A DNA stretch of 64,000 nt from Candidatus Poribacteria bacterium (GTDB lineage Bacteria; Poribacteria; WGA-4E; JAJDTR01), in NCBI GenBank assembly GCA_028820655.1, contig JAPPIK010000051.1:60106-124105 (forward strand), read 5' to 3'. The number at the start of each line of letters is the position of its first letter. Within the stretch, counting starts at the first letter, position 1. Shown here piece after piece: positions 3,514-22,854 of the stretch. Position numbers and translations under genes: made by a program. Under the pieces are notes generated by a model. That model ran no database searches, was not told the DNA's origin, and saw only the letters and a list, made by a program, of their open reading frames with translations.

Positions 3514-4347
3514 ATGAGAAGCATCGTTTCAACTTTTACCGCAACGTTCATCTTGGCAGCGTTATGCAGCTTCGCTTATGCCGGCGCCGTGCCGGGCGCC
3601 GTAATGATTCTTGACGCCTCCGACAACCCCGATCACCCCAAGGCTTGGAAAAACCTTGGCGAAGCGGGCGGATCGCTGTCTGCCGCCGACAAGGCGCCCG
3701 ATCTCGAAGATGGGCCAATCAAGATAGCGAGCTTGGGTATCAATGAGCGAAAAGGGATGTATTACACGGCGAAGGAATCAAAACGAACCTTCGGCGGCCC
3801 CGTCAACAAGAATCCCAAGCTGTATTTGGCCGACTATACTTTTGAGTTCCTTTGCAGGCGAAACGGCAATTTGTTTGTCGAGGAACATCACTTCGTCGGT
3901 TTCCAAAACAGCCCGGCGGAGGGCGCTCAAGGGATTCGCTTTTGGTTGCTGGGCGGCGGCGATGAGCTAGGAATCTCGATCCACGCCAAGGGCTCCAAGC
4001 AGGCTCCCGCGGCGATCAAGATCCAGTTGGAGCAAGATGTTTGGACGTGGGTCACGCTTGTCGGCGAGAACAAAAAGTCGATCGTGGCGTATCAAGACGG
4101 CAGGAAGATTAGCCAACAGGGCGGCTTCGATTGGAACGTAAAATTGCCTATCAATGAGATCTCCATCGGCGCAAATTCTCATAGTGAACGGCGTCGGACG
4201 TTCAACGGTTCATTCTCCCTCGTGCGCGTCTATGACAAGGCGTTGACGCCGGCTCAAGTCTTGAGCAACGCGAAGGGCGTGTTCCTAGCTGTCGAGCCGG
4301 GCGACAAGCTCTCAACGACTTGGGGTAAGTTAAAGCAGGGATTTTAG
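3514..4347 (+). CDS. Secreted LamG/concanavalin A-like protein with TTWG tail
   Basis: A 277-residue protein starting at the ATG behind aggagaag; the same frame is open further upstream but without a ribosome site. Residues 1-23 are a signal peptide (hydrophobic core, cut near AYAGA). The body looks like a single LamG/pentraxin-type beta-sandwich: YTFEFLCRR, WTWVTLVGE, YQDGRK and SLVRVYDKALTPAQV are typical strands of that fold. It probably binds carbohydrate or protein outside the cytoplasm; the ligand is unknown. The end, LSTTWGKLKQGF, matches the ends of two other secreted proteins in this window (genes ending at 20773 and 22854), outside the folded domain. Confidence 0.8.
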   Translation: MRSIVSTFTATFILAALCSFAYAGAVPGAVMILDASDNPDHPKAWKNLGEAGGSLSAADKAPDLEDGPIKIASLGINERKGMYYTAKESKRTFGGPVNKNPKLYLADYTFEFLCRRNGNLFVEEHHFVGFQNSPAEGAQGIRFWLLGGGDELGISIHAKGSKQAPAAIKIQLEQDVWTWVTLVGENKKSIVAYQDGRKISQQGGFDWNVKLPINEISIGANSHSERRRTFNGSFSLVRVYDKALTPAQVLSNAKGVFLAVEPGDKLSTTWGKLKQGF

Positions 4348-4416
4348 TACGCTTACGCACGTCCCGCCTTTAATTTGGGGAGCGTGGTCCAAAATCTCGG
4401 TCTCTCGGTTAGAGGG

Positions 4417-4509
4417 GAGTCGCGGCCGGGAGAAGATCTCTATGGGATTTCTATCGCGTTCCTTATTCAGTCACTTGATCACTCACTATCCATTCGCTTG
4501 ATCTCCTAC
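4417..4509 (-). repeat. Composite REP with nested insert
   Basis: Read on the minus strand it starts GTAGGAGATC and ends in the usual GCGACTC foot, but the loop is replaced by about 65 bases made of two copies of a tctatcgc...tcactTGATC unit. It belongs to the same family as 28444-28505 and the three copies at 56979-57446. Confidence 0.65.
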
Positions 4510-4526
4510 CGGGAGGCATGTGGGGG

Positions 4527-4553
4527 GAGTCGCGAGCGGGAGATCGCTCCTAC
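4527..4553 (-). repeat. REP palindrome
   Basis: A 27-base REP: GTAG foot, then a GCGATC/CTCGC stem with a small loop, ending GACTC. One base in the stem differs from the window consensus. Confidence 0.8.
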
Positions 4554-4766
4554 CAAACGGTTCCAAGCCGGTTCCGATTGTAGTGGATTTGTCACTCGGC
4601 TGCGAGCAGATTCCGTCGATTTAACGTACATTGACCCGGTTTGCGACGCATCCTATGAGAGGGTCGGGTCAGAAGCCTATAGGACCTCTACCGCCCTCGC
4701 TATTCACTCAGTTGATCCTATGGGAATGGGTAGCAACATGCGTTATAATATCAAGAGGAAGGATCT

Positions 4767-6377
4767 ATGATTGAAAAGCCCGAACGAAAAAGCCCCACGG
4801 AACAACTAGATATTCAACGCAAGACCGAAGACATCGTAAGCGGCAAGCGCCCCGTCGATATTCTGTATCCCTACATCCCGCCGGACTACAAAGTGCCCTT
4901 CCTGCACATCGGCACGGAAAAACAGTTGTTCTTGGATAACTTCATCTTGGACCGGCTTGACGGCGTGACGCGCGTCTTTCCAAAACCCGACCGCCCCGAC
5001 GACCCCATCATCAAAACCATGGAACTCCCGTGGGAACTGCGCGGCGGAATTTTTCCCGTAACGGCGGTGCAAGACCCCGACGACAAGAAGTTCAAGTTGT
5101 GGTACGTGAAGGATCGCACGCGAGCGCTATGCTATGCGGAGGCGGACGATCCGCTGAATTGGGAAAAGCCGCTGAGCGAAAAGTGCATTCCCTTCGAGGA
5201 TCACAAAGCCACGAACATCGTCCTGGATAACTCCGGCCACCATGTCGCGTTGGCGCTGAACTACGATCAGAGCGACGCGGAACGCAAATTCCTTATGATC
5301 AACAATCCGGGGGATGTGAGCAGGGGACCGGACAAGAAAACCGTGTTTCGCGTCTCCAGCGACGGTCTGCAATGGACAACGGTCAACGAGAACACGCCCT
5401 ACCAACATCACCACTACCAGCGCCCCATCTGGGACGAGTCCATTCAGAAGTGGATCTCTTACAGCCAGTATTCGCACCACTGGAATATGCTGTACCGCAA
5501 ACGCCAAATCGGACGTCAGGAGAGCGCCGATTACATGCATTGGTCGCCGAAAGAGGTGGTGCTTTCCGTGGATTGGGAGCCGAACCTCCCGCCCCACCTC
5601 GAATTTCACGACATGTCGGTGCGCAAGGTGGGCGGTCAATACATCGGCGTGGCGACTGAGTTCATGGCGGAGCCCATCCGGTGCGCCCCCGGAGATTGGA
5701 ACTGGCACGACCACGCCTACGCGCACCTCTCGCTGTACGCCAGCCGGGACGGAAAGCACTGGCGGCGCGCGGGGGACGACGGTCCCTGGGCGGACAGGGG
5801 CAGACCCGGCAGCTACGATTACGGTTTCCTGAACGACAGTGTGGCGGGGCAACTCGTCCACGACGGCAAGACCTTCATCGTCTACGGCGCGCGTCCCGAG
5901 AAACAGCGTCCCAAAAACACGATGGCGCCGGAGGAGAATTATGATCGGGCGACTGCGGACCGGCAAAAACTCGTCGACGCCCTCGGAACCTATCCCCGTA
6001 TGGGCGCCTGCTCCGTCGGGATCCTCATCCTGCGCGAGGACGGCTGGGCGGAACTGAAGCCGTCGTACGAACGGGGCGAGGTCACCACGCGGCAATTCGT
6101 ATTCGAGGGGGACACGCTCAAGCTCAACGCGGAAGCCTACGGCGGATACATCCGCGCGGAGGTGCTCGATCCCCAATTCAAGCCGTATGAGGGCTTTTCA
6201 GCCGCGGATTGCGACCCGGTGTATTCGGACGACCCCAAGCAGATTTGGCATACGGTCCGATGGAACGGCAGCAGCGATGTCCGCTCGTTATGGAACAAAC
6301 CGGTGCGCATCGTGTTCCATCTGCATCAGGCGAGCCTGTACGCGTTCCAGTTTGTGTATGCGGACGCGGGTGGGTAG
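4767..6377 (+). CDS. Five-bladed-propeller glycosidase-like protein (paralog 1)
   Basis: A 536-residue protein with a good ribosome site (agaggaagga). It resembles the GH32/43/68 propeller superfamily: repeated blades with FKLWYV, LCYAE, DGLQWTTV, KWISYSQYSHHW, SRDGKHWRR. The entry strand IGTEKQLFLDNFI carries the acidic position where a GH32/43 nucleophile sits. A C-terminal beta domain (about 440-536) ends in the family signature HQASLYAFQF. There is no signal peptide, so it is probably cytoplasmic. It is the closest relative of the product at 14935-16575; together with six others it forms a family of eight in this window. The sugar-hydrolase function is inferred from fold; the substrate is unknown. 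Confidence 0.8.
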   Translation: MIEKPERKSPTEQLDIQRKTEDIVSGKRPVDILYPYIPPDYKVPFLHIGTEKQLFLDNFILDRLDGVTRVFPKPDRPDDPIIKTMELPWELRGGIFPVTAVQDPDDKKFKLWYVKDRTRALCYAEADDPLNWEKPLSEKCIPFEDHKATNIVLDNSGHHVALALNYDQSDAERKFLMINNPGDVSRGPDKKTVFRVSSDGLQWTTVNENTPYQHHHYQRPIWDESIQKWISYSQYSHHWNMLYRKRQIGRQESADYMHWSPKEVVLSVDWEPNLPPHLEFHDMSVRKVGGQYIGVATEFMAEPIRCAPGDWNWHDHAYAHLSLYASRDGKHWRRAGDDGPWADRGRPGSYDYGFLNDSVAGQLVHDGKTFIVYGARPEKQRPKNTMAPEENYDRATADRQKLVDALGTYPRMGACSVGILILREDGWAELKPSYERGEVTTRQFVFEGDTLKLNAEAYGGYIRAEVLDPQFKPYEGFSAADCDPVYSDDPKQIWHTVRWNGSSDVRSLWNKPVRIVFHLHQASLYAFQFVYADAGG

Positions 6378-6586
6378 GAATTATCCGGAGCGTAGATTTG
6401 TTCCCAAAAGGTATAGTCAAGATTCTATCGAAACTAGGCATTCAAAACGTGTGCACCACTCATGATCCTCCGTAGAGATTCCCACTCGACTCTGCGATTG
6501 GACACACACTTCGCATAGAGATTATCGGAATCTAATCTCCACACGCTTACAAATACTTCGCTCGCAGAATTACCGGGAGGTTGAGA

Positions 6587-6931
6587 ATGGAAATCGACGT
6601 TTACAAGAATAACGATATCACCTATCTGAAACCCAATGGCAAGTTGATTGGGAGCGCTTCTACCGAATTGAGGCGTAAAATCTATCACTTTTTATCCGAT
6701 ATCGAGGAGGCGCCGAAATTTCTCATTGATTTTGCAGATGTAACGGTGGTGGATAGTTCGTCGCTCGGCGCGTTGATGGAGGCGCATATATCTATCACAA
6801 AGAAGGGGGGACGTATCGCCGTTATCAACGTCAGCAAACACATCAAAAGTCTCATTGTTCGAAGCCGGCTCATCAGCACGTTTGAACATTTCGAGAGCGA
6901 AAACGAAGCGGTTTCGGCGCTTCAATCCTAA
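6587..6931 (+). CDS. STAS-domain anti-anti-sigma factor (SpoIIAA-like)
   Basis: A 114-residue single STAS domain. The ATG at 6587 sits six bases after gggagg and is preferred over the in-frame TTG at 6581. The phosphorylation loop reads VVDSSSLGAL (residues 54-63), with Ser58 as the expected target; the usual glycine after the two serines is serine here. Such proteins bind an anti-sigma kinase when dephosphorylated and so free a sigma factor. No serine kinase/anti-sigma gene lies nearby, so its partner must be elsewhere. A hairpin lies 20 bases after the stop. Confidence 0.9.
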   Translation: MEIDVYKNNDITYLKPNGKLIGSASTELRRKIYHFLSDIEEAPKFLIDFADVTVVDSSSLGALMEAHISITKKGGRIAVINVSKHIKSLIVRSRLISTFEHFESENEAVSALQS

Positions 6932-6951
6932 GGCAACGGATTTTTTGGGTA

Positions 6952-6975
6952 CGGCGAATTCAGCGCAATTCGCCG
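6952..6975 (+). terminator. Hairpin after STAS gene, possible terminator
   Basis: Nine-base perfect stem CGGCGAATT/AATTCGCCG with a six-base loop, 20 bases after the stop codon. It lacks a following T-run (a T-run precedes it), so intrinsic termination is not certain. Confidence 0.35.
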
Positions 6976-7088
6976 GGAATCGAAAACATCCCCTAGGCTT
7001 TCCCAACAATACTTCCACGGCGCCGTGATATTTATAGGGCGTTTACAGTTAATCTCCTCACACAAATGGTGGTAGCACGTACGAACAA

Positions 7089-7191
7089 TGTTGGGTTTCA
7101 CTCAGATTGTGGCACGTTCAAGCGAAACAGGCATTCGAAAATCACTACAAGAGCGGCGATTACAAACGCATTTCCGTTCAACCCAGCCTAC
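7089..7191 (-). mobile_element. 103-bp MITE copy 1
   Basis: Read on the minus strand it begins GTAG, then GCTGGGTTGAAC, and ends at TGAAACCCAACA, so its two ends can pair. It is non-coding and the same length as five other copies. Confidence 0.8.
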
Positions 7192-7307
7192 GACTCCTGA
7201 CGCACTCGCTCATCCAACCATTCTCCGACATACTCGAACACTGCTCCCTTCGGAGGAAGCGCACCTAATTACAGAGGGCGTTATTGGGTGGTAGAACGCA
7301 CGATTCA

Positions 7308-7410
7308 TGTTGGGTTTCACTCAATTATTGGCTCGATAAAGCGAAGTAAACACTCGACAATCCCTTCAGGAGCGGCGATTATTAACGGATTTCCGTTCAA
7401 CCCAACCTAC
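7308..7410 (-). mobile_element. 103-bp MITE copy 2
   Basis: Same limits and ends as the copy at 7089, with GTAGGTTGGG at the foot on the minus strand. Within the tandem array. Confidence 0.85.
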
Positions 7411-7526
7411 GACTCCTGACGCATTTGATCATTCAACCATTTTCCGACATACTCGAATGCTGCTCCCTTTGGAGGAAACGCACCTAATTACAGAGGGCGT
7501 TATTGGGTGGTAGAACGCACGATTCA

Positions 7527-7628
7527 TGTTGGGTTTCACTCAATTATTGGCTCGATCAAGCGAAGCAGGCATTCGAAAATCACTACTAGGTGACGATTAT
7601 TAACGGATTTCCGTTCAACCCAACCTAC
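7527..7628 (-). mobile_element. 102-bp MITE copy 3
   Basis: Third copy in the tandem array, one base shorter, with the same ends. Confidence 0.85.
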
Positions 7629-7767
7629 GACTTCTCGCGCATTCGCTCATCCAACTGTTATCCGGAGCGCTCAACCGCCGCCGACCAAGACCCCGAACAC
7701 CAAAAACAGGTGCTGGAGCAGCGAGCCAGGGCGCGACAACATGAATGCCTAACAAGGTGATAACGCC

Positions 7768-8154
7768 ATGACACGCCTTGCCGTACTTGCCACCACCCTT
7801 CTCGTGCTCATGAGTTGCACCAATTCGCCGCCGAAAAAAGAAAAAGTCACAAATATTGAGGTATCCGCAGAGGCTGGCGTTGAACCTCTTCAACCGCTAA
7901 AGAGTCAATACCCACAAACCTATGATGTGCTGAAACGCATCCAAGAGTATAATGCCAAATTTGGATTCGATACCGGCACTTATAAGATTTCCGCCAATCA
8001 ACGAGGTAAATACGGCTCATTTTCAATGAGCTATAGTGGCCAAAGTGAGACGCCCAATCAGAATCTTAAAACACGCCGGGCTGAAGTTAACGCACGTAGG
8101 CGGCCGTTTCATTATCGCCGACCGGTGGTTCCGGACGGCGCGGTTGACCCATGA
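7768..8154 (+). CDS. Putative lipoprotein, end possibly altered by repeat
   Basis: A 128-residue product with a ribosome site (aaggtga) nine bases before the ATG. The N-terminus is a lipoprotein signal ending LVLMSC (Cys17). Residues 18-85 look like an ordinary soluble domain (YPQTYDVLKRIQEYNAKFGF), with no family I recognise. The last 35 residues are arginine/proline-rich (RRAEVNARRRPFHYRRP) and unlike the rest, as if the reading frame runs on into non-coding DNA after a truncation. It may therefore be a 3'-damaged gene. Confidence 0.5.
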   Translation: MTRLAVLATTLLVLMSCTNSPPKKEKVTNIEVSAEAGVEPLQPLKSQYPQTYDVLKRIQEYNAKFGFDTGTYKISANQRGKYGSFSMSYSGQSETPNQNLKTRRAEVNARRRPFHYRRPVVPDGAVDP

Positions 8155-8244
8155 AACCTCCCGATTCGGATGTCGTGGTAAGCACCGCCATAATCGCAGC
8201 CATCTCTCCGCCTTTTCGCAGAACGAACATACGTTGCCACCTTT

Positions 8245-8295
8245 GTAGCACGATTTGTTAGATTGCGGAACGCGCAAACTAACAGTTTGCGCTAC
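8245..8295. repeat. Double-hairpin element with GTAG at both feet
   Basis: Left arm: GTAG followed by an imperfect CACGATTTGTTAGATTGCG hairpin. Right arm on the other strand: GTAG followed by CGCAAACT GTT AGTTTGCG. The copy at 14155-14203 has both arms but GTAC feet. Confidence 0.75.
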
Positions 8296-8703
8296 ATCGT
8301 TACGTTCATTAACGCACGGTCATAATCGTGTGTATATGAATGTAAATGAGTAAATTACCCCAATTGCGACGCCTTCCCCATCCAACTATTCCCCGCAATC
8401 CCTCACCGATTCCCTCCCACTTTGCTCTTGATCCCACACCTTGAATTTGCTATGATGCGGATAGTGTTTCAGGCTCGCAAGCGCACGGTTTCCCGCACTT
8501 GCCATTGTCCCAGCCAGCCTTTACGAATGGTGAAGTCCAATTACGCTGAACTCATCATCCGCACAATAGACTTGTGTAATCTCGAATTTTCACATACTAG
8601 ATCTTGGGCGTATCTCCTCGAACGGCCAAAAATCACCGAGATCCTACCCCGAGTCCGATTGATTGACCGATTTTGCTCTTCCATCATCAGTTTCAGAGCC
8701 TGG

Positions 8704-8918
8704 TAGAATAATCGGTAGCAGAGTCATTTTTAGTCACTCGTAGGAAGGTTATTCGTGCTTTTATTGTTGTCTGCTATGTACCTGTCGCCCCTCCGGGGCT
8801 TAGGTGCACGGAGTTTTCTGGCATTTCTACACACCTTCAAGATCTCTATCGCACTCACTATCCATTCGCTTGATCCCCTCTGGGGCTTTTAAATGCTGGT
8901 GCGCAGTGCGCACCCTAC
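8704..8918. repeat. Dispersed repeat, copy 1 (with copy at 44187-44358)
   Basis: Shared landmarks in the same order: cggtagca.ag.cattttt, tttttattgttgtct, acctgtcgcccct, and a final ctggtgcgc hairpin ending ccctaca. The middle differs: this copy carries the tatcgcactcactatcc unit. Confidence 0.7.
8898..8918 (-). repeat. Class-2 GTAG hairpin
   Basis: On the minus strand: GTAG, then the 17-base palindrome GGTGCGCA C TGCGCACC. Confidence 0.8.
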
Positions 8919-9503
8919 AAATGTACTTTTCAAACGGGCTCATTTCTGTCAATAATGGTGCGCGACACGGCCGCATGAGAAATTAAACTTTTAGGTGCTC
9001 GATAATGCAGAAGATAAGGCTGAAAGAAAGAAAATAGCGAATTAACGTCCGCTTCAGTCTGTTTTGACAGACCCTCGAAAATACGCTCCCGACCAATAAA
9101 CGACTTTAGCCATGTTTCCAAATGAAATTGAGGAAGATATCAATAGTTGTGCAGTTTAAGGGTTGAAGCGTCGAAGCGGTGTAGAACAGAAAAATTGGTC
9201 GGTGGCTTGAAGGGAAATAGAGTTCGCAGTGCAGATGCCCGGGTCAAATCAGTCCGCAAGGCTGATTCCAAACGGGTGGAAACCTGTTCGGAGTGGATGA
9301 ACATTGATGCAGATTACGTGGTGGAAACTTTAAGAGCGAGAGGCAAGTCAAGACTTAAAAAAGAGATACGCGCAAAGTCCTCGCTGCATTGTAAGCAAAG
9401 CGATACATTCAATTGGACACAGAGTGAGACGTTCCGCATCAATGGTTTCCGAATTAAATCTGTTTGAGTTCGGATTGGAGTTTCACCGACGGAGGACAAA
9501 TTC

Positions 9504-10115
9504 ATGAATTTCCGACAACAGCTAATTTACCTCACGTTTTGTGGCGCCACTGTACTCATCGGCATGTTGCTTTCATCGTGTGCTGCCAATCCTTATGCAA
9601 AGTTTTACACATCTGTTCCGAATAGTTCTGGTGTTTTAGTGGAGAGGCAACCTAGCGAAAACCCTACTATTGTCAGGGGAGAGTCTGTTCCACCGGGGCC
9701 TGCCGAAACCATGCTTCCAATTGTCAGAAAAGAAATTCGCCTGATGCAAAGCAATGGGCACCAATTGATTGGCTATTCTATCTTCCTATCGTCAAAGCAA
9801 CAGCTTGGAATGCTCAGATCTCATGCAAAAAAAATTGGTGCAGACACTGCTATTTTTTACAAGCAGTATCGACACACCGAACGCGGGCATGTGCCACTTA
9901 CTTTACCCGATGCAAGAAAAAAAATAAAGGTACAGCGATCAGGTACAATTTCAGGAGACGTATCGGTTTACTACAACGAGGACGAAATAATCACATTGCC
10001 AAAAACTTACACGACGCATTGGTTGCCTTATAGCCGCGACAGATACAGTTTCTGTGCAACCTTTTGGATAAGAAGGCAATTTGGCAAACAGGGTTATATA
10101 AGGAGAAAACAATGA
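9504..10115 (+). CDS. Putative lipoprotein with MNFRQ leader
   Basis: A 203-residue product; ggagg lies nine bases before the ATG. The leader MNFRQQLIYLTFCGATVLIG ends in a lipobox LLSSC (Cys26). The middle part (IRLMQSNGHQLIGYSIF, AKKIGADTAIFYKQY) has the look of small envelope lipoproteins with a GAD motif, but I cannot name the family. The last residues are basic. Its stop overlaps the start of the next gene by ATGA, so the two are probably translated together. The two genes share the same leader sequence but differ after it. Confidence 0.65.
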   Translation: MNFRQQLIYLTFCGATVLIGMLLSSCAANPYAKFYTSVPNSSGVLVERQPSENPTIVRGESVPPGPAETMLPIVRKEIRLMQSNGHQLIGYSIFLSSKQQLGMLRSHAKKIGADTAIFYKQYRHTERGHVPLTLPDARKKIKVQRSGTISGDVSVYYNEDEIITLPKTYTTHWLPYSRDRYSFCATFWIRRQFGKQGYIRRKQ

Positions 10116-10627: not shown

Positions 10628-10822
10628 GAAGTGGCAAATGTTTTCGCCAATTACCGTGGCAGTGGGTTTGGAGCAAATTCCCTTTCTCACGTTCCTCGCA
10701 ACACGGTCTAAGATGTTCAATCCGCAAAAAGCCGAGTTTTGAAAAACCCGATTGCTCTAAATGGAGTGCCATCTTCTGAATCTGTGTTTCCACACTGACC
10801 ACCGTTCTTTGAAGGACATACC

Positions 10823-12208
10823 ATGCCCGAAAAAAAGCCCCATATCCTGCTGCTTATCAACGATGAACACCGCCCCGATGTGATGCCGATTGAAGGCGAT
10901 CCGCACATTCGGACGCCCACCCTTGACCGGTTCATCAACCAAGGCACATACTTCCGCAACGCCTATACGCCGTCGCCGATCTGCGTACCGGCGCGGCAGA
11001 GTTTTCTCTCCGGTCTATACCCGCACAACACGGGCGCCCTCGAAAACGACAACGAGATGCCGAGCGAAACTGTGACCATGCCCGGTCACCTCTCACGCTA
11101 CGGCTACCAAGCGGTCGGCGCGGGCAAGATGCACTTTCCGGGTCCCGACCAGATGCACGGCTGGCATGAACGCATCGGCAGGGATATCCGAGGTCGGAAC
11201 GGCTATGAATCGGCGAAGGATCCGGAGCGCAAAGCCGAGACCTTCACCGAACCCGGTACCGGCAAATGGTCGTCCGCCAAGGAGGTTACGAACGCCCGTG
11301 TCGGCAAGGGTTACTGGATGTCGCACGACAAGTATTGCGTGGACGGGGCGTTGATGTTCCTTGAGGAATACTTTGTCAACGAGGCGTACGACAGACCCGG
11401 CAACCGCCCGCTGCTGCTCGCCGTCAGCCTGTGGTGTCCGCACTATCCGTACCAGTGCCCCGAGGACCTGTTCAACTACTACATGCGCCGTGTGGAGCCG
11501 TACGTCGAGGATTTGCCCGAGAAATTCGCCTGCGACGATTTCTTCAAGGTGAAGATCGGGGAGGATGTGACCTACCGCGAGGCACACCGGGCGACGGCTG
11601 CATATTACGGCATGATCGAGTGGGTGGATATCCAGTACGCCCGCGTCATAGCACGACTTGAGGAGTTGAACGTGCTCGACGACTTCATCGTCGCCTTCAT
11701 GAGCGATCACGGCGAGATGCTGGGGCAGAAGGGGCTGTGGGAGAAACAGCAGTATTTCGAGGCATCGGCGCGCGTGCCGTTCTTCATCTCGTGCCCGGGA
11801 GGCGGGTCAATCTCGACCGAAAGATGGGATTCCATACCGCGCGGGGGTGTCGTTCAGCAGAACGTCTCGTTGGTCGACCTGTTCCCGACGCTATGTGATC
11901 TGGTGAACGTTCCTGCCCCGGAGGGGTTGGATGGGCGTTCGTTGGTTCCGATCATGGAGGGGCGAACGGATGAATGGGAGAACGAGGCGTATTCCGAACT
12001 CCACACGCACCAACACGGACCGTCGGTGATGGTCAAGCACGAGCATCTGAAGTATTTCCGTTTTGAGGGCAAGGGTTGGCCGGAGCAACTCTTCGATTTG
12101 GCGGTCGATCCCGATGAGAACCGAAATCTGATCGATGATGAGGCGTATGCGGAGGATTTAAAGCGGTTGCGCGCCAAAGCAGATTCGTTTAACAGGAGTA
12201 ATGCGTAA
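10823..12208 (+). CDS. Sulfatase (formylglycine-dependent, arylsulfatase type)
   Basis: 461 residues; aagga lies seven bases before the ATG. The sulfatase signature SPICVPARQSFLSG has the C-x-P-x-R core with Cys54, which must be converted to formylglycine for activity. Metal-site motifs are INDEH (residues 12-16; a variant of the common DD) and MSDHGEMLGQKGLWEKQ. It hydrolyses sulfate esters, probably on a polysaccharide or its fragments given the glycosidase-like neighbours. No signal peptide is visible, unlike the sulfatase at 31037, so it may act on imported sulfated sugars. No sulfatase-maturing enzyme is encoded in the window. Confidence 0.93.
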   Translation: MPEKKPHILLLINDEHRPDVMPIEGDPHIRTPTLDRFINQGTYFRNAYTPSPICVPARQSFLSGLYPHNTGALENDNEMPSETVTMPGHLSRYGYQAVGAGKMHFPGPDQMHGWHERIGRDIRGRNGYESAKDPERKAETFTEPGTGKWSSAKEVTNARVGKGYWMSHDKYCVDGALMFLEEYFVNEAYDRPGNRPLLLAVSLWCPHYPYQCPEDLFNYYMRRVEPYVEDLPEKFACDDFFKVKIGEDVTYREAHRATAAYYGMIEWVDIQYARVIARLEELNVLDDFIVAFMSDHGEMLGQKGLWEKQQYFEASARVPFFISCPGGGSISTERWDSIPRGGVVQQNVSLVDLFPTLCDLVNVPAPEGLDGRSLVPIMEGRTDEWENEAYSELHTHQHGPSVMVKHEHLKYFRFEGKGWPEQLFDLAVDPDENRNLIDDEAYAEDLKRLRAKADSFNRSNA

Positions 12209-12353
12209 TGGACTTCCATCTCGCTCATTGTCCGCCCGCTTGAGCGAACTACTATCGCGCTGAGAACTCTATGGGAGGTCTACCGCGTTCGCTATTCACT
12301 CACTTGCTGGAACTGCATCGCATTCGCTATTCGCTCATTTGATCCCTATGGAT

Positions 12354-12374
12354 GGTGGGCAGAGCCCACCCTAC
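12354..12374 (-). repeat. Class-2 GTAG hairpin, preceded by solo insert units
   Basis: GTAG, then GGTGGGCT C TGCCCACC on the minus strand. Just before it (12270-12343) are two to three copies of the cgttcgctattcactcacttg unit found nested in composite REPs. Confidence 0.75.
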
Positions 12375-12457
12375 ACTTAGATTCGGTTGATCGTTATTCA
12401 CTCGCTTGATGGAAACTATTTTTACGGATTACGCTTCACGTATTCCTACACAACACA

Positions 12458-13975
12458 ATGACCCCTCACAAACTCGATTACGGCACGGAACTATTTGTAG
12501 ACGATTTGCTCATTGAGACGAAGCGCGGTGTCACGCGCACGCTTCATCCGGCGGCCAAAACACCGGAACCGGTCTTGGCGCCGGAGCCCGGCAAGCCGTG
12601 GGAGAACGACGGACCCGAGCGAACCAAACGGGTGAATCTCTTGGGAACGGTGCTCCACGACAAGAGGTCGAACAGATACCAGATGTGGTATTTGGCTCGC
12701 ATGGATCCGGATCACGGACACCGCATCCCCGGTTTATATGTCCCCCGCACCGGCGCCGGAGACGCCACCCGGTACATGGGACGGCGCACAGACGATGACG
12801 GCAGGAATTTCCGAGGCAGCGACATCGGCGACCTGCTCTGCTATGCCGAAAGCGATGACGGGCTGAAGTGGACCAAACCGGATTTGGGGGTGTTCGATTT
12901 TGACGATAGCCCGAACAACAACATCGTTTGGGACCTGCACGGCGCCAGCGTATTTCTTGACGACGCCCGAGACGACTGGGAGCGTTATACGGCGATCGGT
13001 TTTTGCCGCCGCTACCGGAACATCTTCGTGATAAAGTCGCCCGACGGTATCCATTGGAACGATGAAGGATTGAAACAGCCGGTGATAGAGCGCTCCAACG
13101 AGGGACCTACGAATGTGGTGTACGACGCAAAGGCTGACCGCTACCTCTCTTATATGCTGCTCGGGGGAGGAGCGGAGCGCCGCCACATCGAATACAGCGA
13201 GAGCGAGAAATTGGAAGACGGCTGGTCGGAAATAACCCCCATGCTGGAGCCGAGTCCGAGAGACGACGCGCTGGGAAAAGAACGCTACGGCGCCATCCGA
13301 GCGGAGTTTCACAACATGTCCGGTTATCCCTATGGCAGCATTTATGTCGGTATTTTGGGCGTCCTCTACGTCACCGAGGATATCGTGAATACCGTGCCGG
13401 GGCAGGCAGCCGTCGATGGCCCCATCGACGCGCAATTCGTCTATAGCAGAGACGGCGTGAACTGGCACCATTTTGAAGACCGGACACAGGTTCTTCCACG
13501 CGGGAAGGGTGGCGAATACGATTCGGGCATGATTCTCTTCACCGCCAAGGAGCCGTTGGTAGAAGATGACGAGATCCATTGGTATTACACCGGCAGCACA
13601 CAGACGCACGGCAAACTGTTGAAGGACAAGGTGATGTCCATCGGGAGAGCCAGTTGGCGGTTAGACGGGTTTGTCTCGCTCGATGCGGCTGACGGCGTGG
13701 TTGAAACCGTTCCGCTGCAAATGCCGGACGGGGGGCTCGAAGTGAACGTTGACGCGAGCGCGGGCAGCCTTGCCGTCGAGGTGTTGTCGCCGGACGGAGG
13801 GGTGCAGTCAGGATATTCGGCGGAAAGCTGCACGTCTATCCGCGGGGATCACGTGCGCCATCCGGTTCGCTGGGGTGACCGCGGTTTGAATCGGGCGGAA
13901 CAGCCGTGCCGGCTTCGTTTTCGTTTGAAGGGTGCGAGGCTTTACAGTTTTCGTATTCTCCCGCCTGGAGATTGA
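12458..13975 (+). CDS. Propeller glycosidase-like protein (paralog 2)
   Basis: A 505-residue member of the eight-protein family. Family motifs in order: DYGTELFVDDLLIE (entry strand), YQMWYLARMD, LLCYAESDDGLKWTKPDLGVFDF, NNNIVWDLHGASVFLDD, KSPDGIHWND, DAQFVYSRDGVNWHHFE, EIHWYYTGS, then the C-terminal domain LEVNVDASAGSLAVEVLS ending RLRFRLKGARLYSFRIL. No signal peptide. It is most like the two genes at 60633-63970 in the LHGASVFLDD and DGPIDAQ segments. The start codon lacks a clear ribosome site. Glycoside-cleaving activity is inferred from the fold only. Confidence 0.78.
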   Translation: MTPHKLDYGTELFVDDLLIETKRGVTRTLHPAAKTPEPVLAPEPGKPWENDGPERTKRVNLLGTVLHDKRSNRYQMWYLARMDPDHGHRIPGLYVPRTGAGDATRYMGRRTDDDGRNFRGSDIGDLLCYAESDDGLKWTKPDLGVFDFDDSPNNNIVWDLHGASVFLDDARDDWERYTAIGFCRRYRNIFVIKSPDGIHWNDEGLKQPVIERSNEGPTNVVYDAKADRYLSYMLLGGGAERRHIEYSESEKLEDGWSEITPMLEPSPRDDALGKERYGAIRAEFHNMSGYPYGSIYVGILGVLYVTEDIVNTVPGQAAVDGPIDAQFVYSRDGVNWHHFEDRTQVLPRGKGGEYDSGMILFTAKEPLVEDDEIHWYYTGSTQTHGKLLKDKVMSIGRASWRLDGFVSLDAADGVVETVPLQMPDGGLEVNVDASAGSLAVEVLSPDGGVQSGYSAESCTSIRGDHVRHPVRWGDRGLNRAEQPCRLRFRLKGARLYSFRILPPGD

Positions 13976-14154
13976 GGGCGTGTATCGCGCATGGTCCATT
14001 GATCTTTAGAGATTATCTTGCACCGCATTTGGAAGGTTGGATTGACGTTGCTGATTGGTCGGTTCGCTAAGAATATATGGCAAGAGATGGGAGCCGGTAG
14101 TTAACACGCTACCAAGTAACTCTTTTTCAGAATCAGTCTTGGAGAAGGAAATCT

Positions 14155-14203
14155 GTACCACAATCTGTTAGATTGTGATCCGCAAACTAACAGTTTGCGG
14201 TAC
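14155..14203. repeat. Double-hairpin element, second copy
   Basis: Two perfect hairpins, CACAATCT GTT AGATTGTG and CGCAAACT AAC AGTTTGCG, separated by three bases and flanked by GTAC on both sides. Confidence 0.8.
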
Positions 14204-14208
14204 GAGAG

Positions 14209-14680
14209 TGTTACGTGCTGAAGGAAGTATTCCGATTGGAATAATGTCATGCTCTCAAGTAACACTCGACATAGCACTCCGCTGGAGTGCGGCGATTGGA
14301 CGCATCATGATTCTATTGACATTGCACTCCGCTGGAGTGAAAACCAGACGACGAAGGAACACTTTTCACGGCTAATCATTGAGCGAAAAAAACCAGTGTT
14401 ACTTGCTGAAAGAATTATCCCGACAGGGATAATGGCACGCTCTTAAGTAACACTCCACATTGCACTCCGCTGGAGTGCGGTGATTGGACGCATCACGATT
14501 CTATTGACATTGCACTCCGCTGGAGTGCAGACGCGGTGAGGAATCGTGTTCTATTGACATCTCACTCCTCTGGAGTGAAACTATTCTACGATGGAATGCT
14601 TTTTCAAAACCTGTCATAGAGCGCAAAATGAGTGTTACTTGCTGACAGAATTATTCCGACAGGGACAATGGGGTGCTCTT
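14209..14680. repeat. 188-bp tandem duplication with CACTCC hairpins
   Basis: The phrase gtgttac.tgctga occurs at 14209, 14396 and 14631. Inside are five copies of the hairpin GCACTCC GCT GGAGTGC or a near variant (14274, 14324, 14462, 14512, 14562); copies 1/3 and 2/4 are each 188 bases apart. Unlike other hairpins here they lack a GTAG foot. A related hairpin is at 50213-50229. Confidence 0.75.
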
Positions 14681-14746
14681 AACCATGATTCGCGGGATCT
14701 CTTTCGCGGTCGTAGTACACTCCCTTGATCCCGCACTGCAAGAAAT

Positions 14747-14767
14747 GGTGGGCAGTGCCCACCCTAC
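14747..14767 (-). repeat. Class-2 GTAG hairpin
   Basis: GTAG plus GGTGGGCA C TGCCCACC on the minus strand. Relative to 8898-8918 both sides of one stem pair are changed together (C-G to G-C). Confidence 0.8.
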
Positions 14768-14787
14768 AATACGCTACGGTGGGGTGG

Positions 14788-14814
14788 GAATCGCGACCGG
14801 GAGGTCGCTCCTAC
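14788..14814 (-). repeat. REP palindrome
   Basis: 27 bases: GTAG foot, GCGACC TCCC GGTCGC stem-loop, GATTC tail, on the minus strand. Confidence 0.88.
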
Positions 14815-14833
14815 CGGGTGGCGTATGGTGGGG

Positions 14834-16575: not shown

Positions 16576-17094
16576 AACGGGATTTGGCAGTAGTAGGCGT
16601 ACTCCGTATGCCGTAACCCCGGTGCAGATTCCGCAACAGCAGAGGGATTCCTATCCGAACTTCCTATGGACTCGCTTCAGCGGGAACTCTTACCGGCCAG
16701 ATTCCCCTTCACTATTCGTTCCGTTGACCCCTTACCGTTCGCTCGATCGGTTTCAGTTTATCGACAGATATCGTACTGGCAAATAGCGGTTAAAGTCACT
16801 CCTCCCAACCAATTACCAAGATTTCTTTCACACCTGTTATTCAAACGGACTCTTGGACATTCCCGTACGCACCTGATGAAATTGGGATTGTACCAAATAC
16901 TCGATACCGACTCGTATATCATTTTATTGGGACGAAAGTAAGAAATCTGCACATTTCCCGAGAAAATTAATCGGTCGTGTGATGATTCCCCTCCAAAGTG
17001 CATCTTCAATAGTAGAAGGCACGTCTCCAGGCAGACAGCGAGTTTCATTCAGAAGGTCTTTCGCATCCAACCACTCAAGCTTGGGAGTCAAAGG
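16576..17094. other. Intergenic region before the sigma-propeller gene
   Basis: About 520 bases with degraded repeat-like phrases (ttcactattcgttccgttgacccc) and no convincing gene. Confidence 0.4.
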
Positions 17095-19803
17095 ATGACA
17101 CTGAGCGATGTCGAGTTAATCGAGCGCACATTGGCGGGCGACGAAACCGCATTCGGGTTTCTGGTAGATAAATACAAGGGTGCGGTGCACGCCCTGGCGT
17201 ACCGAAAGCTCGGGGATTTTCAACTTGCCGAGGAAATTGCTCAGGACACGTTTCTGGCGGCGTACCAGAAACTGGGGACACTGAGGAATCACACCCATTT
17301 ACCGGGCTGGCTCTATGTCATCGCTTCCCGTCGTTGCTTGATGTGGCAGCGGAAGAATCGACCGCGGGTGCAATCAATTGGCGAGATGAAGACGGGTGAA
17401 ATGGATTCGATCGCGCAGAGAAGGCATGCCGAGAAACAGACTCAACAACAGGTACGCGACGCACTCGAGAGCCTACCCGAAAGTGAACGCACAGTGCTGA
17501 CGCTGCACTATTTCGGGGGGCTGACAGGCAAGGAGATCGCACAGTTTATCGGCACCTCACCCGGCGCCGTTCTAAATCGGCTCTATCGCGCACGAGCCCG
17601 ACTGAAAGAGGAGATTATACCGATGATACGGGCAACCTCAGGCATGATCCAACTACCTCCAACCTTTACTCAACAACTCATTCGCCAAATTCGCGAACTT
17701 CAACCAACACCCTCGCCGAGCGGGAAACCATGGGTCCCGTGGATTGCGGCGACAACAGTTTTCGTGATTGCGCTGTTCATCGGTATCGGGCAGCAAAGGA
17801 TGACTTCGTTTCAACGCCCCTATAGCTTGGATGCGCCCGAATCGGAGATCATGGTCGAGATTTTGGACATGCCGGTGGTTGAGCCGCTACCGGCGGAACG
17901 GCCTCTGTTCATTCATGGCGTACCTTCGATCGCGGGAAAGACTGGCACAGGAGACCGAAGCAACGACGCCGTTTTAGGGAAAGCCGTAGAGCCGCCGGCG
18001 CGAGCCAAATCGGCCTACGCGGAGTGGACGCCGATGAATGGGCCTTACGGCGGGACGATTTTGTCCCTGCTTGCTACGCCGGAGGGAACGCTTTTCGCCG
18101 GCACAGATTACGCACTTCTTTTCCGATCGCCCGACGGCGGGCAGTCATGGAAAAAAGTTCATACACCCCTTGAGGATTTACCTCATTTGAGGTGGCTGAC
18201 GTCGCTGGCGGCGATCGACGATACGCTTTACGCCACGGGGAGTTTTGTTGTCTCCTCAACGGATGGCGGCGATTCTTGGACGAGAGACGTCCGGTTTGGA
18301 GAAGACAGAGATGGCTTTTGCGGCGTCGCGATAATTAAAGGGACACTTTATGCGGGATCGAGGGAAAGGGGGGTGCTACGTTCAAACGATGATGGGCAAA
18401 CATGGGTGCCCATGAATGAGGGCTTGACTGATTCTCCGGATTCTCAATCCGAGAACGTGCCGGGAATAGGAATAATACCGGAGCCTATGATTAACACATT
18501 CCTCGCAGAGGGTGCCACACTCTACGTGGGATCCGACGCCGGGGCTTTCCGGCGCAAAGCAGGTGCTGACCGGTGGGAGCCGTTGCATAAAGCCATGTTT
18601 ACGGATGTGAGAACAGGTCTCGAACTCCCGAAAAATCCGGCTCAACCGTTCTCTTCTGTCCGTTCTCTTGCCACAAAAGGCGGTGAGATTTACCTCGCTA
18701 CTAGGGAAGCTCTATACCGCTCTTCAACCGGTGGTTCTTCGTGGAAACAGATTCCATGGAAAAACGAATTATACCGCGGTTCAATCATGTCGATTGCCGC
18801 AGCCGGCGACATGGTCTACGCCGGTGTATATTCCAGCGGTGTCTTTCGCTCAACCGATAATGGGCAAACTTGGAAGTCGGCCAGCGCGGGAATAGCTAGT
18901 TCGACGGTGCAAGACGTGGAAGGACTAAATGGCGCGGTCTACGCGACAGATCGCTTTAGCGTCAGCCGGTCTTCAGATAGAGGCATATCGTGGGAAACCA
19001 TTCACAAGGGACTGCCCCCCGACAGCTATATTGAGCGGCTCGTCGTCTCGACCGGAACTCTCTACGCCGCCGTTGGCAGTCTCGCCGGACAAATCTATCG
19101 ATGGGATGAATCCCGGGCGTCGTGGTTACGAGTTGCATCGGACACGCGACTGATTGGCGTCAGTTCGCTGACGATTCAAGGGAAGATCTTCTGCGTCGGA
19201 ACGAATCACGATGGGGTTTTTCGCTCGCCCGACGGGGGTGGGATTTGGACTGAACTAGGGCTTCGCGGAAAAAAGATCAACGCGATTGCGGTGCGTGGAA
19301 TGGACATTTACGCAGGCACCGAGGGTGAAGGAATTTTTCGGCTGGAGCACGGCAGTGGAACGTGGCAGCAGCTCGACGTGAGTTCAACGATCCACCGCGT
19401 CCGCGATTTGGTGGTTGCGGACGGGACGTTGTACGCCGCTGGAATAACGACGCGGGGACCCCTGGTCCGCAGACTGCTTTGTGACGTTGGCAATTATGCG
19501 ATCAGAGGGGTTCTGCGCTCTCACGACGGAGGCGATTCATGGAAGATGGTTAATGGCGGTCTGAAGGCTGGAATGGGGGTCACCTCGTTGGCGGTTGACC
19601 AATCCACTCTTTACACAAGCGACGGGCTTCGAATTTTTCGGTTGCCACTTGGTGCAGACTCGTGGGAACCGGTTAGCTCCGGACTGACGAGGGATCCCCT
19701 TCATGTTCAGTGTTTGGGAGTCGATGGGGCAGCGGTTTACGCCGGCACATTTGGATTCGGGGTTTTTCAGGTTTCGCTGGATGCAGAGCTTGAAAAGCCG
19801 TAG
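17095..19803 (+). CDS. ECF sigma factor fused to membrane-anchored propeller
   Basis: A 902-residue protein. Residues 1-90 are sigma region 2 (DETAFGFLVDKYKGAVHALAY, EEIAQDTFLAAY) and 115-175 are region 4, a helix-turn-helix (LTGKEIAQFIGTSPGAVLNRLY). A single membrane segment lies at about 213-232 (WVPWIAATTVFVIALFIG). After a linker, 310-900 hold repeated BNR/Ycf48-type blades (RSPDGGQSWKKV, SSTDGGDSWTR, RSNDDGQTWVP, RSTDNGQTWKS, RSHDGGDSWKM), as in sialidase or Vps10-type propellers. By topology the sigma domain would be cytoplasmic and the propeller outside, so an external ligand could control sigma directly. No anti-sigma gene adjoins it. One uninterrupted frame carries both parts. Confidence 0.88.
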   Translation: MTLSDVELIERTLAGDETAFGFLVDKYKGAVHALAYRKLGDFQLAEEIAQDTFLAAYQKLGTLRNHTHLPGWLYVIASRRCLMWQRKNRPRVQSIGEMKTGEMDSIAQRRHAEKQTQQQVRDALESLPESERTVLTLHYFGGLTGKEIAQFIGTSPGAVLNRLYRARARLKEEIIPMIRATSGMIQLPPTFTQQLIRQIRELQPTPSPSGKPWVPWIAATTVFVIALFIGIGQQRMTSFQRPYSLDAPESEIMVEILDMPVVEPLPAERPLFIHGVPSIAGKTGTGDRSNDAVLGKAVEPPARAKSAYAEWTPMNGPYGGTILSLLATPEGTLFAGTDYALLFRSPDGGQSWKKVHTPLEDLPHLRWLTSLAAIDDTLYATGSFVVSSTDGGDSWTRDVRFGEDRDGFCGVAIIKGTLYAGSRERGVLRSNDDGQTWVPMNEGLTDSPDSQSENVPGIGIIPEPMINTFLAEGATLYVGSDAGAFRRKAGADRWEPLHKAMFTDVRTGLELPKNPAQPFSSVRSLATKGGEIYLATREALYRSSTGGSSWKQIPWKNELYRGSIMSIAAAGDMVYAGVYSSGVFRSTDNGQTWKSASAGIASSTVQDVEGLNGAVYATDRFSVSRSSDRGISWETIHKGLPPDSYIERLVVSTGTLYAAVGSLAGQIYRWDESRASWLRVASDTRLIGVSSLTIQGKIFCVGTNHDGVFRSPDGGGIWTELGLRGKKINAIAVRGMDIYAGTEGEGIFRLEHGSGTWQQLDVSSTIHRVRDLVVADGTLYAAGITTRGPLVRRLLCDVGNYAIRGVLRSHDGGDSWKMVNGGLKAGMGVTSLAVDQSTLYTSDGLRIFRLPLGADSWEPVSSGLTRDPLHVQCLGVDGAAVYAGTFGFGVFQVSLDAELEKP

Positions 19804-19972
19804 AATTGTTTTTCAACCCCGCGATCGGGAAGAAGCCGCCACAGCATCACCCCAACAGAGGTTTTTTTGCTTCAACCCGGTCAACACTCCCCCGTCTAAA
19901 CAGAACAGAGGTCTTTGCGCCTGAATTCAATCGACAACGAAAATGCCACCTTCCCAATTGGAGGGGATTCTC

Positions 19973-20773
19973 ATGAGATGGATACCGATCGTCTTGCTAT
20001 TAGCCGGCTCTCCGCTCTTCACAGCATATTCCGGTACGTTTACGGATGATTTTAGTGATGGAGATCTTGACGGATGGGATGTCTTCATCCACCCGCCACT
20101 TCCGCGCGAAGAAGCTGCACATGTTGTCAAACTTGAAGATGGGGATTTAGTTATAGACACGATCGCCAAAAGGGTTGAACTTCCTCCCGGTTTCGACTTC
20201 ATAGAATTTGTGCGTATGGAATTGAGAGTAGGGGATATGGATGCGTGGAATTCTTACACGCTAACTTGCCAGGTAAAATTTGACAGTGCGCCACGCGAGG
20301 GGCCGGGAATGTTTGTGGTCGGTGTGCGGAGAAGCGAGGGGCATTTTGGCGTGACGGCTCAGCAAATATTACTGATTCTTCCGACACAGCAACACATTCA
20401 GGTGGAAACCGTTGAACCGCACGCCGAGCGCGACCCTATATTAGGGCTGCAGGGGGTGATTCACCATGAAGTCCTCGATCCCAGAAATTTCAGACGGCCC
20501 ATAAAACTCAAACAGTGGCTCCCAATCAAAATCGTGGCTGAGGAAAGCAGGTTTGAGTTTCATTTAGACGAGAATCTCGTAGCCGAATACGAAGATGAAA
20601 ATGCGGGGCCCGGTACCGTTATGTTTCAGGCAGAATTCATGATGGTTGTTCGTCTTGATGACTTTATGATTACGGGACCGGGAATCCCGAACAATGACCC
20701 ACCTCAAAGCGTTAGGCATGAAGCGCGTCTGGCCACCACTTGGGGAGAAATCAAGAACCTTCCCAATAAATAA
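19973..20773 (+). CDS. Secreted beta-sandwich protein with TTWG tail (copy A)
   Basis: 266 residues from the ATG at 19973, preceded by gagggg; an in-frame ATG at 19943 has no ribosome site and would spoil the signal peptide. A signal peptide (IPIVLLLAGSPLFTAYS) is followed by FTDDFSDGDLDGWDVF, a typical opening of DUF1080/LamG-like jelly-roll domains, then YTLTCQVKF, QWLPIKIVAEE, FEFHLDENLVAEYED and VRLDDFMITGP. The C-terminus RLATTWGEIKNLPNK shares the TTWG motif. It is a paralog of the gene at 22096. It lies 170 bases after the sigma-propeller gene and may be co-regulated; its ligand is unknown. Confidence 0.75.
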   Translation: MRWIPIVLLLAGSPLFTAYSGTFTDDFSDGDLDGWDVFIHPPLPREEAAHVVKLEDGDLVIDTIAKRVELPPGFDFIEFVRMELRVGDMDAWNSYTLTCQVKFDSAPREGPGMFVVGVRRSEGHFGVTAQQILLILPTQQHIQVETVEPHAERDPILGLQGVIHHEVLDPRNFRRPIKLKQWLPIKIVAEESRFEFHLDENLVAEYEDENAGPGTVMFQAEFMMVVRLDDFMITGPGIPNNDPPQSVRHEARLATTWGEIKNLPNK

Positions 20774-21217
20774 TCTTCTAATCTGCGAATCCGAGAAAAT
20801 CTCGAAATTAGTCGTTCCAACTCCGTACCCGTTTCCGCATCAACTCCCTTCCTGAGGCAATCCGCATCGCCTTTAATTAGAGCCGACCAGGCGCGAACCG
20901 TCTCCCTATGACCACCGTCGTGTTGTTGCGCAACTCGCGTGAAGTGTTGTAAATTTGCCACTTGTCGGGCAGCACAACACCTATTCATAAGACATTCACA
21001 AGCTAATGTGTTGGTCGGCATTGGTAAAGTCGGCGCGTATTACTTTCGTGAATGGAATTGGCATCGTTCTTGCGCTAGGTTCCGCTACAATTTTTGTTGG
21101 GCGTATGCGTAATCGTAGGGGCGAGGTTCAACTGAGCGAATAGCGAAGGCGATAGTAGATCCTATGCGACAGAGATCCTACCGCAATAGAAAGTCTTGAT
21201 GACTATAGGAGGATGAA
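20774..21217. other. Intergenic region with possible gene remnant
   Basis: A minus-strand frame around 20800-21020 encodes protein-like text (RAWSALIKGDADCLRKG) but overlaps the preceding gene and has no identified family; it may be a decayed gene. A solo gagcgaatagcgaaggcgatag unit lies near 21136. Confidence 0.35.
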
Positions 21218-21931
21218 ATGAAAAGCAAACTTTTTCTATTCTTCTCATGCCTTGTTTTTCTGATTTCGGTTATCTATATTGCGTTTGTATCTATCAGAGG
21301 GAAAATCCACGCCAAAAGCGAACAGCCACCATCGAAAATGTCTGCAAACTTAAACGAGAATTATCGCTATGCCAAGACCATAGCTCCGAAACCCCGACAG
21401 GACGAGTTTAGCGAGTTGACCGACGCTGAACTGGAAGCCGCGCTTGAATATCTTGGGGCTTTAGACGCCCAATCGGGTACTGTGGAAAAACCACAGGCAC
21501 AAGATACACAATTTGCGATTTCCGAGTCCGACACCTTTGAAGAACAGGACATTGCAAGCGGAACTGATCCAGGGTTGAAAGCGACGTTTGAATTTTATAA
21601 GAGAAATCTGACACGGCATTGGGAAATCGCGCACCAGACCACACCCCTTATGAACAAGATTGTTGAACTCGATGAGAGCATGGATGATCTTGATAATCGC
21701 ATGAACGAAATAACTGGCAGAAGCGAGGAACGTCAGAAGTTAAGGAAGACATATCGGCAACTACAGAAAGAGCGGGCTGAAGTCAGCATTGCCCTTGAAC
21801 CTCTTGATGAACTCCAGGCACAGGTCGATAAGGAATGGAAGGATTACCTTTGGGCACACCACGGGATGTCCAATAGTCAATTCCTTGAAGCGCACGGAAC
21901 GGCGCTTAGGTCGTGGTTAGCCAGTCAGTGA
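21218..21931 (+). CDS. Membrane-anchored coiled-coil protein, unknown function
   Basis: 237 residues; aggagg lies five bases before the ATG. Residues 4-26 form one membrane helix (FLFFSCLVFLISVIYIAFV). The rest is hydrophilic and mostly helical, with a predicted coiled coil at about 145-205 (heptad-like MNKIVELDESMDDLDNRMNEI, RQLQKERAEVSIALEPLDEL). No enzyme motif or family is recognised. It sits between two paralogous TTWG-tailed secreted proteins and may be an envelope structural or adaptor protein. Confidence 0.65.
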   Translation: MKSKLFLFFSCLVFLISVIYIAFVSIRGKIHAKSEQPPSKMSANLNENYRYAKTIAPKPRQDEFSELTDAELEAALEYLGALDAQSGTVEKPQAQDTQFAISESDTFEEQDIASGTDPGLKATFEFYKRNLTRHWEIAHQTTPLMNKIVELDESMDDLDNRMNEITGRSEERQKLRKTYRQLQKERAEVSIALEPLDELQAQVDKEWKDYLWAHHGMSNSQFLEAHGTALRSWLASQ

Positions 21932-22095
21932 AGGCAGTAACTGTTCACTTCTTCCGGAACTGGAAAAGCGAAATCTACGCGTCATTATCGCAGCACGAAA
22001 TCAAAGATGAAATGTTCAATGTATATGGCAATTCAAAACCGAGAATTAGGTTCGCCGCCTGTTATTCAAACAGGTTTTAGCCGAGGGGATTGCTC

Positions 22096-22854
22096 ATGAA
22101 ATGGTTGCTATTAGCCATACTCATTGCCGGACTGCCCGCAGCCGCCGCGCATTCAGGTACGTTTCTGGATGATTTCTGTGATGGAAACCTTGACGACTGG
22201 AGTGTCCAATTCTCCCTCGATTTCCCCGATTCCGTCAAAATCGAAAATAGATACCTTGTCATGGATACGACAGCCGGAAAACGAGCAAGGACTGTTTCTG
22301 CCGAGATTAAAATAGAGAACGAACAAAACTGGGACTCTTACACACTTACATGTCGAGTTCGTTTTTCCAGTGAGTTGATTTGGGAGGACCCACAATTTAG
22401 CATTACTGTTCAAGGACGAAACGGGCAATTTGACCTGATGACTGGTCAAATACTGTCGGTACTTCCAATTGTCCAGCTTTTACTAGTGGATACCATTCCA
22501 CCAGACGTCAAACCCGACCAAGATAACATGATTAATATAATCCGCCGCGCAAATTTCGGACCCGAACGTCTCAGACGCCGCATAAAGTTAGATCGGTGGC
22601 TCCCAATCAAAATCGTGGTAGATCGAGATTATCTTGAGTTTCATTTCGACGACAGATTGGTAACAGAGTATGAAGATGAGACGGCGCTCCCGGGCACCGT
22701 GGAATTCAGTGCGGCTCAGGGAATGCTCGTTCATGTGGATGACGTTGTTGTTACGGGGCCGCGCATCCCAAACATTGGTGATCCCCGTAACGTTGACCTG
22801 AAGTCACATCTAGCTACGACGTGGGGAGAAATCAAGAATTCGCCGCGCCGATGA
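22096..22854 (+). CDS. Secreted beta-sandwich protein with TTWG tail (copy B)
   Basis: 252 residues from the ATG at 22096, preceded by gagggg as in copy A. Signal peptide LLLAILIAGLPAAAAHS, then FLDDFCDGNLDDWSV and the same string of motifs as copy A (SYTLTCRVRF, RWLPIKIVVDR, LEFHFDDRLVTEYED, VHVDDVVVTGP). The end is HLATTWGEIKNSPRR. Copies A and B clearly arose by duplication and flank the coiled-coil gene. The fold is DUF1080/LamG-like; a carbohydrate ligand is plausible but unproven. Confidence 0.75.
   Translation: MKWLLLAILIAGLPAAAAHSGTFLDDFCDGNLDDWSVQFSLDFPDSVKIENRYLVMDTTAGKRARTVSAEIKIENEQNWDSYTLTCRVRFSSELIWEDPQFSITVQGRNGQFDLMTGQILSVLPIVQLLLVDTIPPDVKPDQDNMINIIRRANFGPERLRRRIKLDRWLPIKIVVDRDYLEFHFDDRLVTEYEDETALPGTVEFSAAQGMLVHVDDVVVTGPRIPNIGDPRNVDLKSHLATTWGEIKNSPRR

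Follow-up and report, generated by a model that had tools for sequence, protein, structure and literature searches.

Three Exported Proteins With a Common C-Terminal Tail

The window, by which we mean the whole 64-kb stretch of Poribacteria DNA that was analyzed, encodes three proteins that begin with a signal peptide, as judged by inspection and by a heuristic, and that end in closely similar peptides, AVEPGDKLSTTWGKLKQGF in protein 1, SVRHEARLATTWGEIKNLPNK in protein 2, and NVDLKSHLATTWGEIKNSPRR in protein 3 (Table 1). The DNA pattern for TTWG, ACNACNTGGGG, has three matches on the two strands of the 64 kb and each is at the C-terminus of one of these proteins, just as the preliminary description of this DNA had it when noting a shared C-terminal TTWG motif on three signal-peptide proteins. 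That description had also assigned jelly-roll domains to the proteins and had set the body of the first apart from the other two, and both points hold. Protein 1 is a LamG protein (PF13385, E = 1.7e-12, 48 bits against a cut-off of 27.6), and its tail is itself matched by the tail profile presented below (G000:C61:64387-64446 in the window's own genome, E = 3.4e-10). Proteins 2 and 3, which share about 43% identity, matched no Pfam family in a profile search, and their assignment as jelly rolls is by predicted fold alone: the AlphaFold2 model of protein 2 was found by Foldseek to be of the jelly-roll class and GH16/CBM66-like (E about 1e-8, TM about 0.5), with a resemblance to GH16 glucanases and also to CBM66. 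Rfam gave zero matches in the window.

Table 1. Tailed proteins of the window and the positions of their tails.
Feature	Position in window	Strand	Remarks
Exported LamG protein (protein 1), 277 aa	3514-4347	+	N-terminal signal peptide, C-terminal tail
Tail of protein 1, VFLAVEPGDKLSTTWGKLKQGF	4279-4344	+	TTWG at 4315-4326
Exported jelly-roll protein (protein 2), 266 aa	19973-20773	+	Tailed
Tail of protein 2, QSVRHEARLATTWGEIKNLPNK	20705-20770	+	TTWG at 20735-20746
Exported protein 3, 254 aa, paralogue of protein 2	22090-22854	+	Tailed
Tail of protein 3, RNVDLKSHLATTWGEIKNSPRR	22786-22851	+	TTWG at 22816-22827

Conservation and Distribution of the Tail

The tail is about 20 aa long and is described by a profile of 22 columns, [AS]V.P.(G/D)KL.TTWG.[LI]K followed by a basic end. 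The pattern TTWG..[IL]K has 38 matches in the window's genome and the reversed control pattern has none, while 84 of the 85 Poribacteria genomes contain it, with tens of copies per genome and up to 66, compared with 0–1 matches for the control, and these counts rule out a chance origin. All 85 genomes are matched by the profile, most of them with at least 103 scored matches and with best E-values near 1e-10. When a stricter pattern was run against 84,980 species genomes, the matches listed came almost exclusively from Poribacteria, and a control phylum (148 genomes) yielded only one contig-confined match and three marginal ones. No model in Pfam or NCBIfam describes the tail, and the literature searched on TTWG, on T9SS, and on sorting signals of Poribacteria yielded no description of it.

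The position of the motif is as constant as its sequence. Across the phylum, all 168 pattern matches lie 8–19 residues ahead of the stop codon; the distance is 9–14 residues for all but three of the pattern matches at loci of the window's own genome, and 21 of the 23 TTWG occurrences in a 1.66-Mb sample fall within the last 25 residues. At loci that were fetched with the pattern, the searched letters are conserved by construction, but conservation extends to positions that the pattern leaves free, with V at −8 in 157/167 and P or A at −6 in 146/168, and the non-circular tests are the body-only homologue search and the Trp-neutral regular expression described below. In the own-genome sample, which covers 2.1 Mb (36%) and consists largely of match-bearing contigs, such that counts extrapolated from it would be too high, there are 73 C-terminal profile matches and none elsewhere, and in this sample the motif is thus not scattered through cytoplasmic proteins. 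A recently spread DNA repeat was considered and ruled out as its source: the motif is encoded by fully mixed codons, and third codon positions agree between pairs of tails in a fraction of only 0.34 (34%), and therefore selection acts on the peptide and is old. Judged from sequence, the tail is a general C-terminal feature of Poribacteria that is carried by dozens to more than 100 exported proteins per genome.

Export Association and Diversity of the Tailed Proteins

Tail carriers are strongly enriched in signal peptides, which were called with a home-made heuristic on genes defined as the longest ORF. In the 2.1 Mb of the window's own genome, 58 of 73 tailed proteins have one compared with 362 of 1713 ORFs overall (Fisher p = 1e-27), and most of the remaining tailed proteins have either an evident signal peptide that the heuristic did not call or a mis-called start. 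Phylum-wide, the same crude heuristic finds a signal peptide in 134 of 144 carriers with complete N-termini, and most of the other ten look like start-call errors.

The bodies to which the tail is attached are diverse. Once the tail is removed, the own-genome sample resolves into 12 body families, the largest being TolB-type propellers and LamG, and 99 non-redundant carriers from across the phylum fall into 20 BLAST families and 18 Pfam families that include LamG, 3-keto-disaccharide hydrolase, CBM9, PKD, cohesin, F5/8 C, and LDL-receptor repeats, with LamG (PF13385) found in 57 of the 99 at E ≤ 0.001. The preliminary description had called for a test of enrichment among signal-peptide proteins and would have been refuted by a motif found equally inside cytoplasmic proteins or in one domain family only; the enrichment was found, and neither refuting condition applies. 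A comparison of gene neighborhoods revealed no gene that recurs beside tail genes and no dedicated neighbor. Two regions of the window's genome (G000:C7:23800-39300 and C8:376-19700) contain long tandem arrays of TolB-like propellers, nearly all of them tailed, with recent duplications and fragments.

Physical Properties of the Tail

In the AlphaFold2 models of two different bodies, confidence is mostly good as far as the final strand or helix, after which pLDDT falls below 50 across the tail. The body of protein 1 is mostly at pLDDT 85–95 and its tail is below 50, and in the model of protein 2 (pLDDT 79) it is residues 245–266, the tail, that are below 50. The tail is therefore predicted to lie outside the body fold and to be unstructured. 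It also lacks a transmembrane stretch, as none of 232 tails (0/232) has a hydrophobic 15-mer above a KD of 1.6, the maximum 15-residue KD being 1.53 and the median 0.45. The last 14 residues have a mean net charge of +2.5, with a charge of at least +1 in 219 of the 232 tails.

These properties bear on whether the tail might simply cap jelly-roll and propeller folds as a structural element and have no role in trafficking. The dominance of propellers and jelly rolls among the bodies would fit such a cap, but the tail is a low-confidence segment outside two different predicted folds, it is also present on ankyrin-repeat-like, CBM9, PKD, and cohesin bodies, and, as described below, the same LamG body does without it inside larger proteins, and so we regard a capping function as highly improbable.

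Alternation of the Tail With a T9SS-Type Domain

A search with the LamG body of protein 1, from which the tail had been removed, retrieved 31 stand-alone exported homologues, every one of which ends in the tail or in a TTW[GA]/TVWA form of it. In genome G013, the same LamG body, 51–61% identical, is found inside proteins of 1000–1390 residues with no tail after it, and these large proteins contain LRR and dockerin-like repeats and terminate in a T9SS-type C-terminal domain (CTD). The two kinds of ending are likewise separate in the window's own genome, where there is no overlap between 28 proteins with a T9SS-type CTD and the 73 tailed proteins. A few families do have a tail-like stretch directly upstream of the CTD, and these copies differ at the Trp of the motif. 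With a regular expression that is neutral at this position, Trp is found in 64/64 terminal tails compared with 1/6 pre-CTD copies, of which five are paralogues from one array, after one further match that is not a tail was set aside. The other pre-CTD copies have F, I, or L in place of Trp. If the CTD assumes the task of the tail, relaxation of the Trp ahead of it is what one would predict.

Two loci with both elements can be described separately. An array of proteins at G000:C4:8217-23744 has a degenerate tail, VKPxGLKLTTFGxVKR, directly before the T9SS-type CTD, and in the tandem WD40 proteins at G000:C22:337639-351000 (L017-L019), LTTWGxIK stands about 126 residues from the C-terminus and a T9SS-type CTD follows it. 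The strict motif has no other internal copies.

A further function to consider is that of a processing or quality-control tag, namely a C-terminal propeptide or a periplasmic degradation signal, since the tail resembles cleavable or degradable ends in position, length, and disorder. However, its retention on about 100 exported proteins from many families and its exchange for a secretion domain make a tag of this type improbable.

T9SS Components in Poribacteria and Known C-Terminal Signals

The type IX secretion system is restricted to the FCB group according to a recent paper (PMC11285876). A single-cell study of Poribacteria (Kamke et al., 2014; PMC3909097) described T9SS-type CTDs in the phylum but detected no Por structural genes, and it left the export route unresolved. 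In the genomes analyzed here, SprA_N has matches in 79 of 85, of which 30 are above the cut-off, almost always in one ORF per genome and typically of about 2150–2300 aa, and one SprA copy is matched by TIGR04189 across six stretches (E = 6e-42), under the equivalog cut-off. SprA/Sov-like loci are L314:2891-9403 and, in the window's own genome, G000:C1:23701-30162. PorV matches occur in 84/85 genomes, often two per genome, and 84/85 also encode C25 peptidases of the gingipain/PorU type, with 1–5 per genome, and those examined have T9SS-like CTDs at their ends. One C25 gene lies within about 30–40 kb of SprA in many genomes. The preliminary description had proposed looking for a co-occurring peptidase or transporter, and peptidases (C25) and transporter-like proteins (SprA, PorV) do co-occur with the tail across the phylum. 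From the matches to SprA, PorV, and C25, a divergent T9SS is likely to be present in Poribacteria, and it is the leading, although unproven, candidate for the machinery that handles the tail.

The tail has much in common with the T9SS CTD (TIGR04183/FlgD-Ig-like). Both are C-terminal on signal-peptide cargo from many unrelated families per genome, homologues of SprA, PorV, and C25 are encoded in nearly all Poribacteria, with SprA not found in the tail-bearing genomes G085 and G259 of another phylum, and a CTD replaces the tail on homologous bodies. However, the T9SS CTD is a folded Ig-like beta-sandwich of 70–100 aa with GxY and C-terminal K motifs, whereas the tail is far shorter and predicted to be disordered, and shorter still than the three-stranded CTDs of 40–55 residues with which the T9SS of P. 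intermedia works (PMC11969387). Pfam and NCBIfam CTD models have zero matches on the tail proteins, and homology of the two was not found when the tail profile was compared with a Poribacterial CTD profile (hhalign probability 0.2%). The Por_Secre_tail of Kamke et al. (2014; PMC3909097) is also a C-terminal sorting-type domain, from the same phylum and on WD40 and other proteins, but that study concerns TIGR04183 and, in the text that was searched, does not mention the tail. PEP-CTERM/exosortase, GlyGly-CTERM, MYXO-CTERM, and LPXTG signals are likewise short, recurrent C-terminal regions with a basic end on diverse exported proteins, and the logic by which such tags are discovered has been set out before (PMC1569441, PMC3237569, PMC11980579). 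Signals of the PEP-CTERM/LPXTG type combine a motif with a transmembrane helix and a basic cluster, unlike the tail, which lacks the helix.

The tail could therefore be a minimal T9SS signal, in which case a divergent SprA translocon with a PorV shuttle would export the tailed proteins and a PorU-like C25 peptidase would trim or attach them. The near-universal SprA, PorV, and C25 matches and the alternation or concatenation of tail and CTD on one body argue for this, and the short CTDs of P. intermedia together with HBP35, in which the targeting signal is in the last 22 residues (PMC11285876), indicate that in Bacteroidota short signals are compatible with a T9SS. Set against these are the lack of profile similarity between tail and CTD and the two tail-bearing genomes of another phylum, described next, in which SprA is not detectable, and on balance we consider a minimal T9SS signal somewhat doubtful.

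Variants and Occurrence Outside Poribacteria

The single Poribacteria genome without TTWG..K, G009, has a lineage-wide variant instead, SVDPxGKAAAVWGxLKxR, which is present on 28 proteins in the sample, whose bodies belong to about 15 families. That the motif has shifted in concert on unrelated proteins suggests that they have a shared partner.

Beyond Poribacteria, the tail was found in two of the 58 genomes of another small phylum, G085 (loci L260, L264, L268, L270, and L272) and G259 (L395 and L396), with 5–6 tails in each. The carriers are ankyrin-like and protease-like exported proteins, some of which have lipobox-like signal peptides, and several look like lipoproteins. Misbinning was dropped as an explanation for G085, where the loci are on several contigs; the six of G259 are on one contig. 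The matches in G086 and G087 are on a single contig in each genome. Neither G085 nor G259 has a SprA match at E ≤ 0.001, which suggests that the tail can exist without a T9SS.

One possibility that we take seriously, although we would not give it even chances, is that the tail marks the substrates of a new outer-membrane route for sorting or secretion that is separate from T9SS. Such a route would serve about 100 proteins per genome and the tail would have reached a few members of another phylum, and the receptor would be an envelope protein that varies together with the motif (TTWG in most lineages and AAVWG in G009). Alternatively, the tail might be an anchor or docking peptide that binds one abundant scaffold, such as a porin, an S-layer, or a lattice protein, in the periplasm or at the surface and has no part in transport. 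A short, unstructured, and near-invariant peptide with a conserved Trp, a basic end, and no transmembrane helix is what such docking might require, and single-domain adhesion- and lectin-like bodies dominate among the carriers, but alternation with a T9SS export domain points to trafficking and the probable lipoproteins of G259 need no extra anchor, and thus docking without transport seems rather unlikely.

A Proposed Role in Protein Sorting

We propose that the tail is probably a new class of C-terminal sorting tag that is read by a shared envelope factor, a proposal with which the T9SS, separate outer-membrane route, and docking readings overlap. The N-terminal signal peptide would take these proteins out of the cytoplasm, the flexible, solvent-exposed tail would be recognized in the periplasm by the envelope factor, and this factor would direct the protein to its next site, most likely on the outer membrane or beyond it. 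The tail would then serve a purpose like that of the folded T9SS CTD, its substitute on large multidomain proteins. A sorting, anchoring, or processing role had been suggested from the three proteins of the window, and it is still at the level of inference. We further infer that there is one common receptor, for which the Poribacterial SprA/PorV/C25 apparatus is the leading but unproven candidate, and that the destination is the cell surface.

Poribacteria are uncultured, and the phylum is largely known from marine sponges, in which its members belong to the dominant symbionts. Contact with the host is presumed to be mediated by their surface and secreted proteins of the lectin, propeller, and LamG types. 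A search for this single short tag now gives a list of about 100 proteins per Poribacteria genome that are likely to be sorted, and since the tag alternates with a T9SS domain in organisms that encode homologues of SprA, PorV, and C25, the decoration of the symbiont surface becomes directly testable.

Sigma Factor–Propeller Fusions

Between the tailed genes of the window, at 17095-19803 on the + strand, is a gene for a protein of 902 aa that joins an ECF sigma factor, a membrane-spanning stretch, and a large BNR/sortilin-type propeller, and which looks like a sigma factor carrying its own extracytoplasmic sensor. Similar sigma-factor fusions are found at L325:8698-11730 and 11767-14802 (both on the − strand), and genome G082 has sigma factors of this type joined to WD40 propellers.
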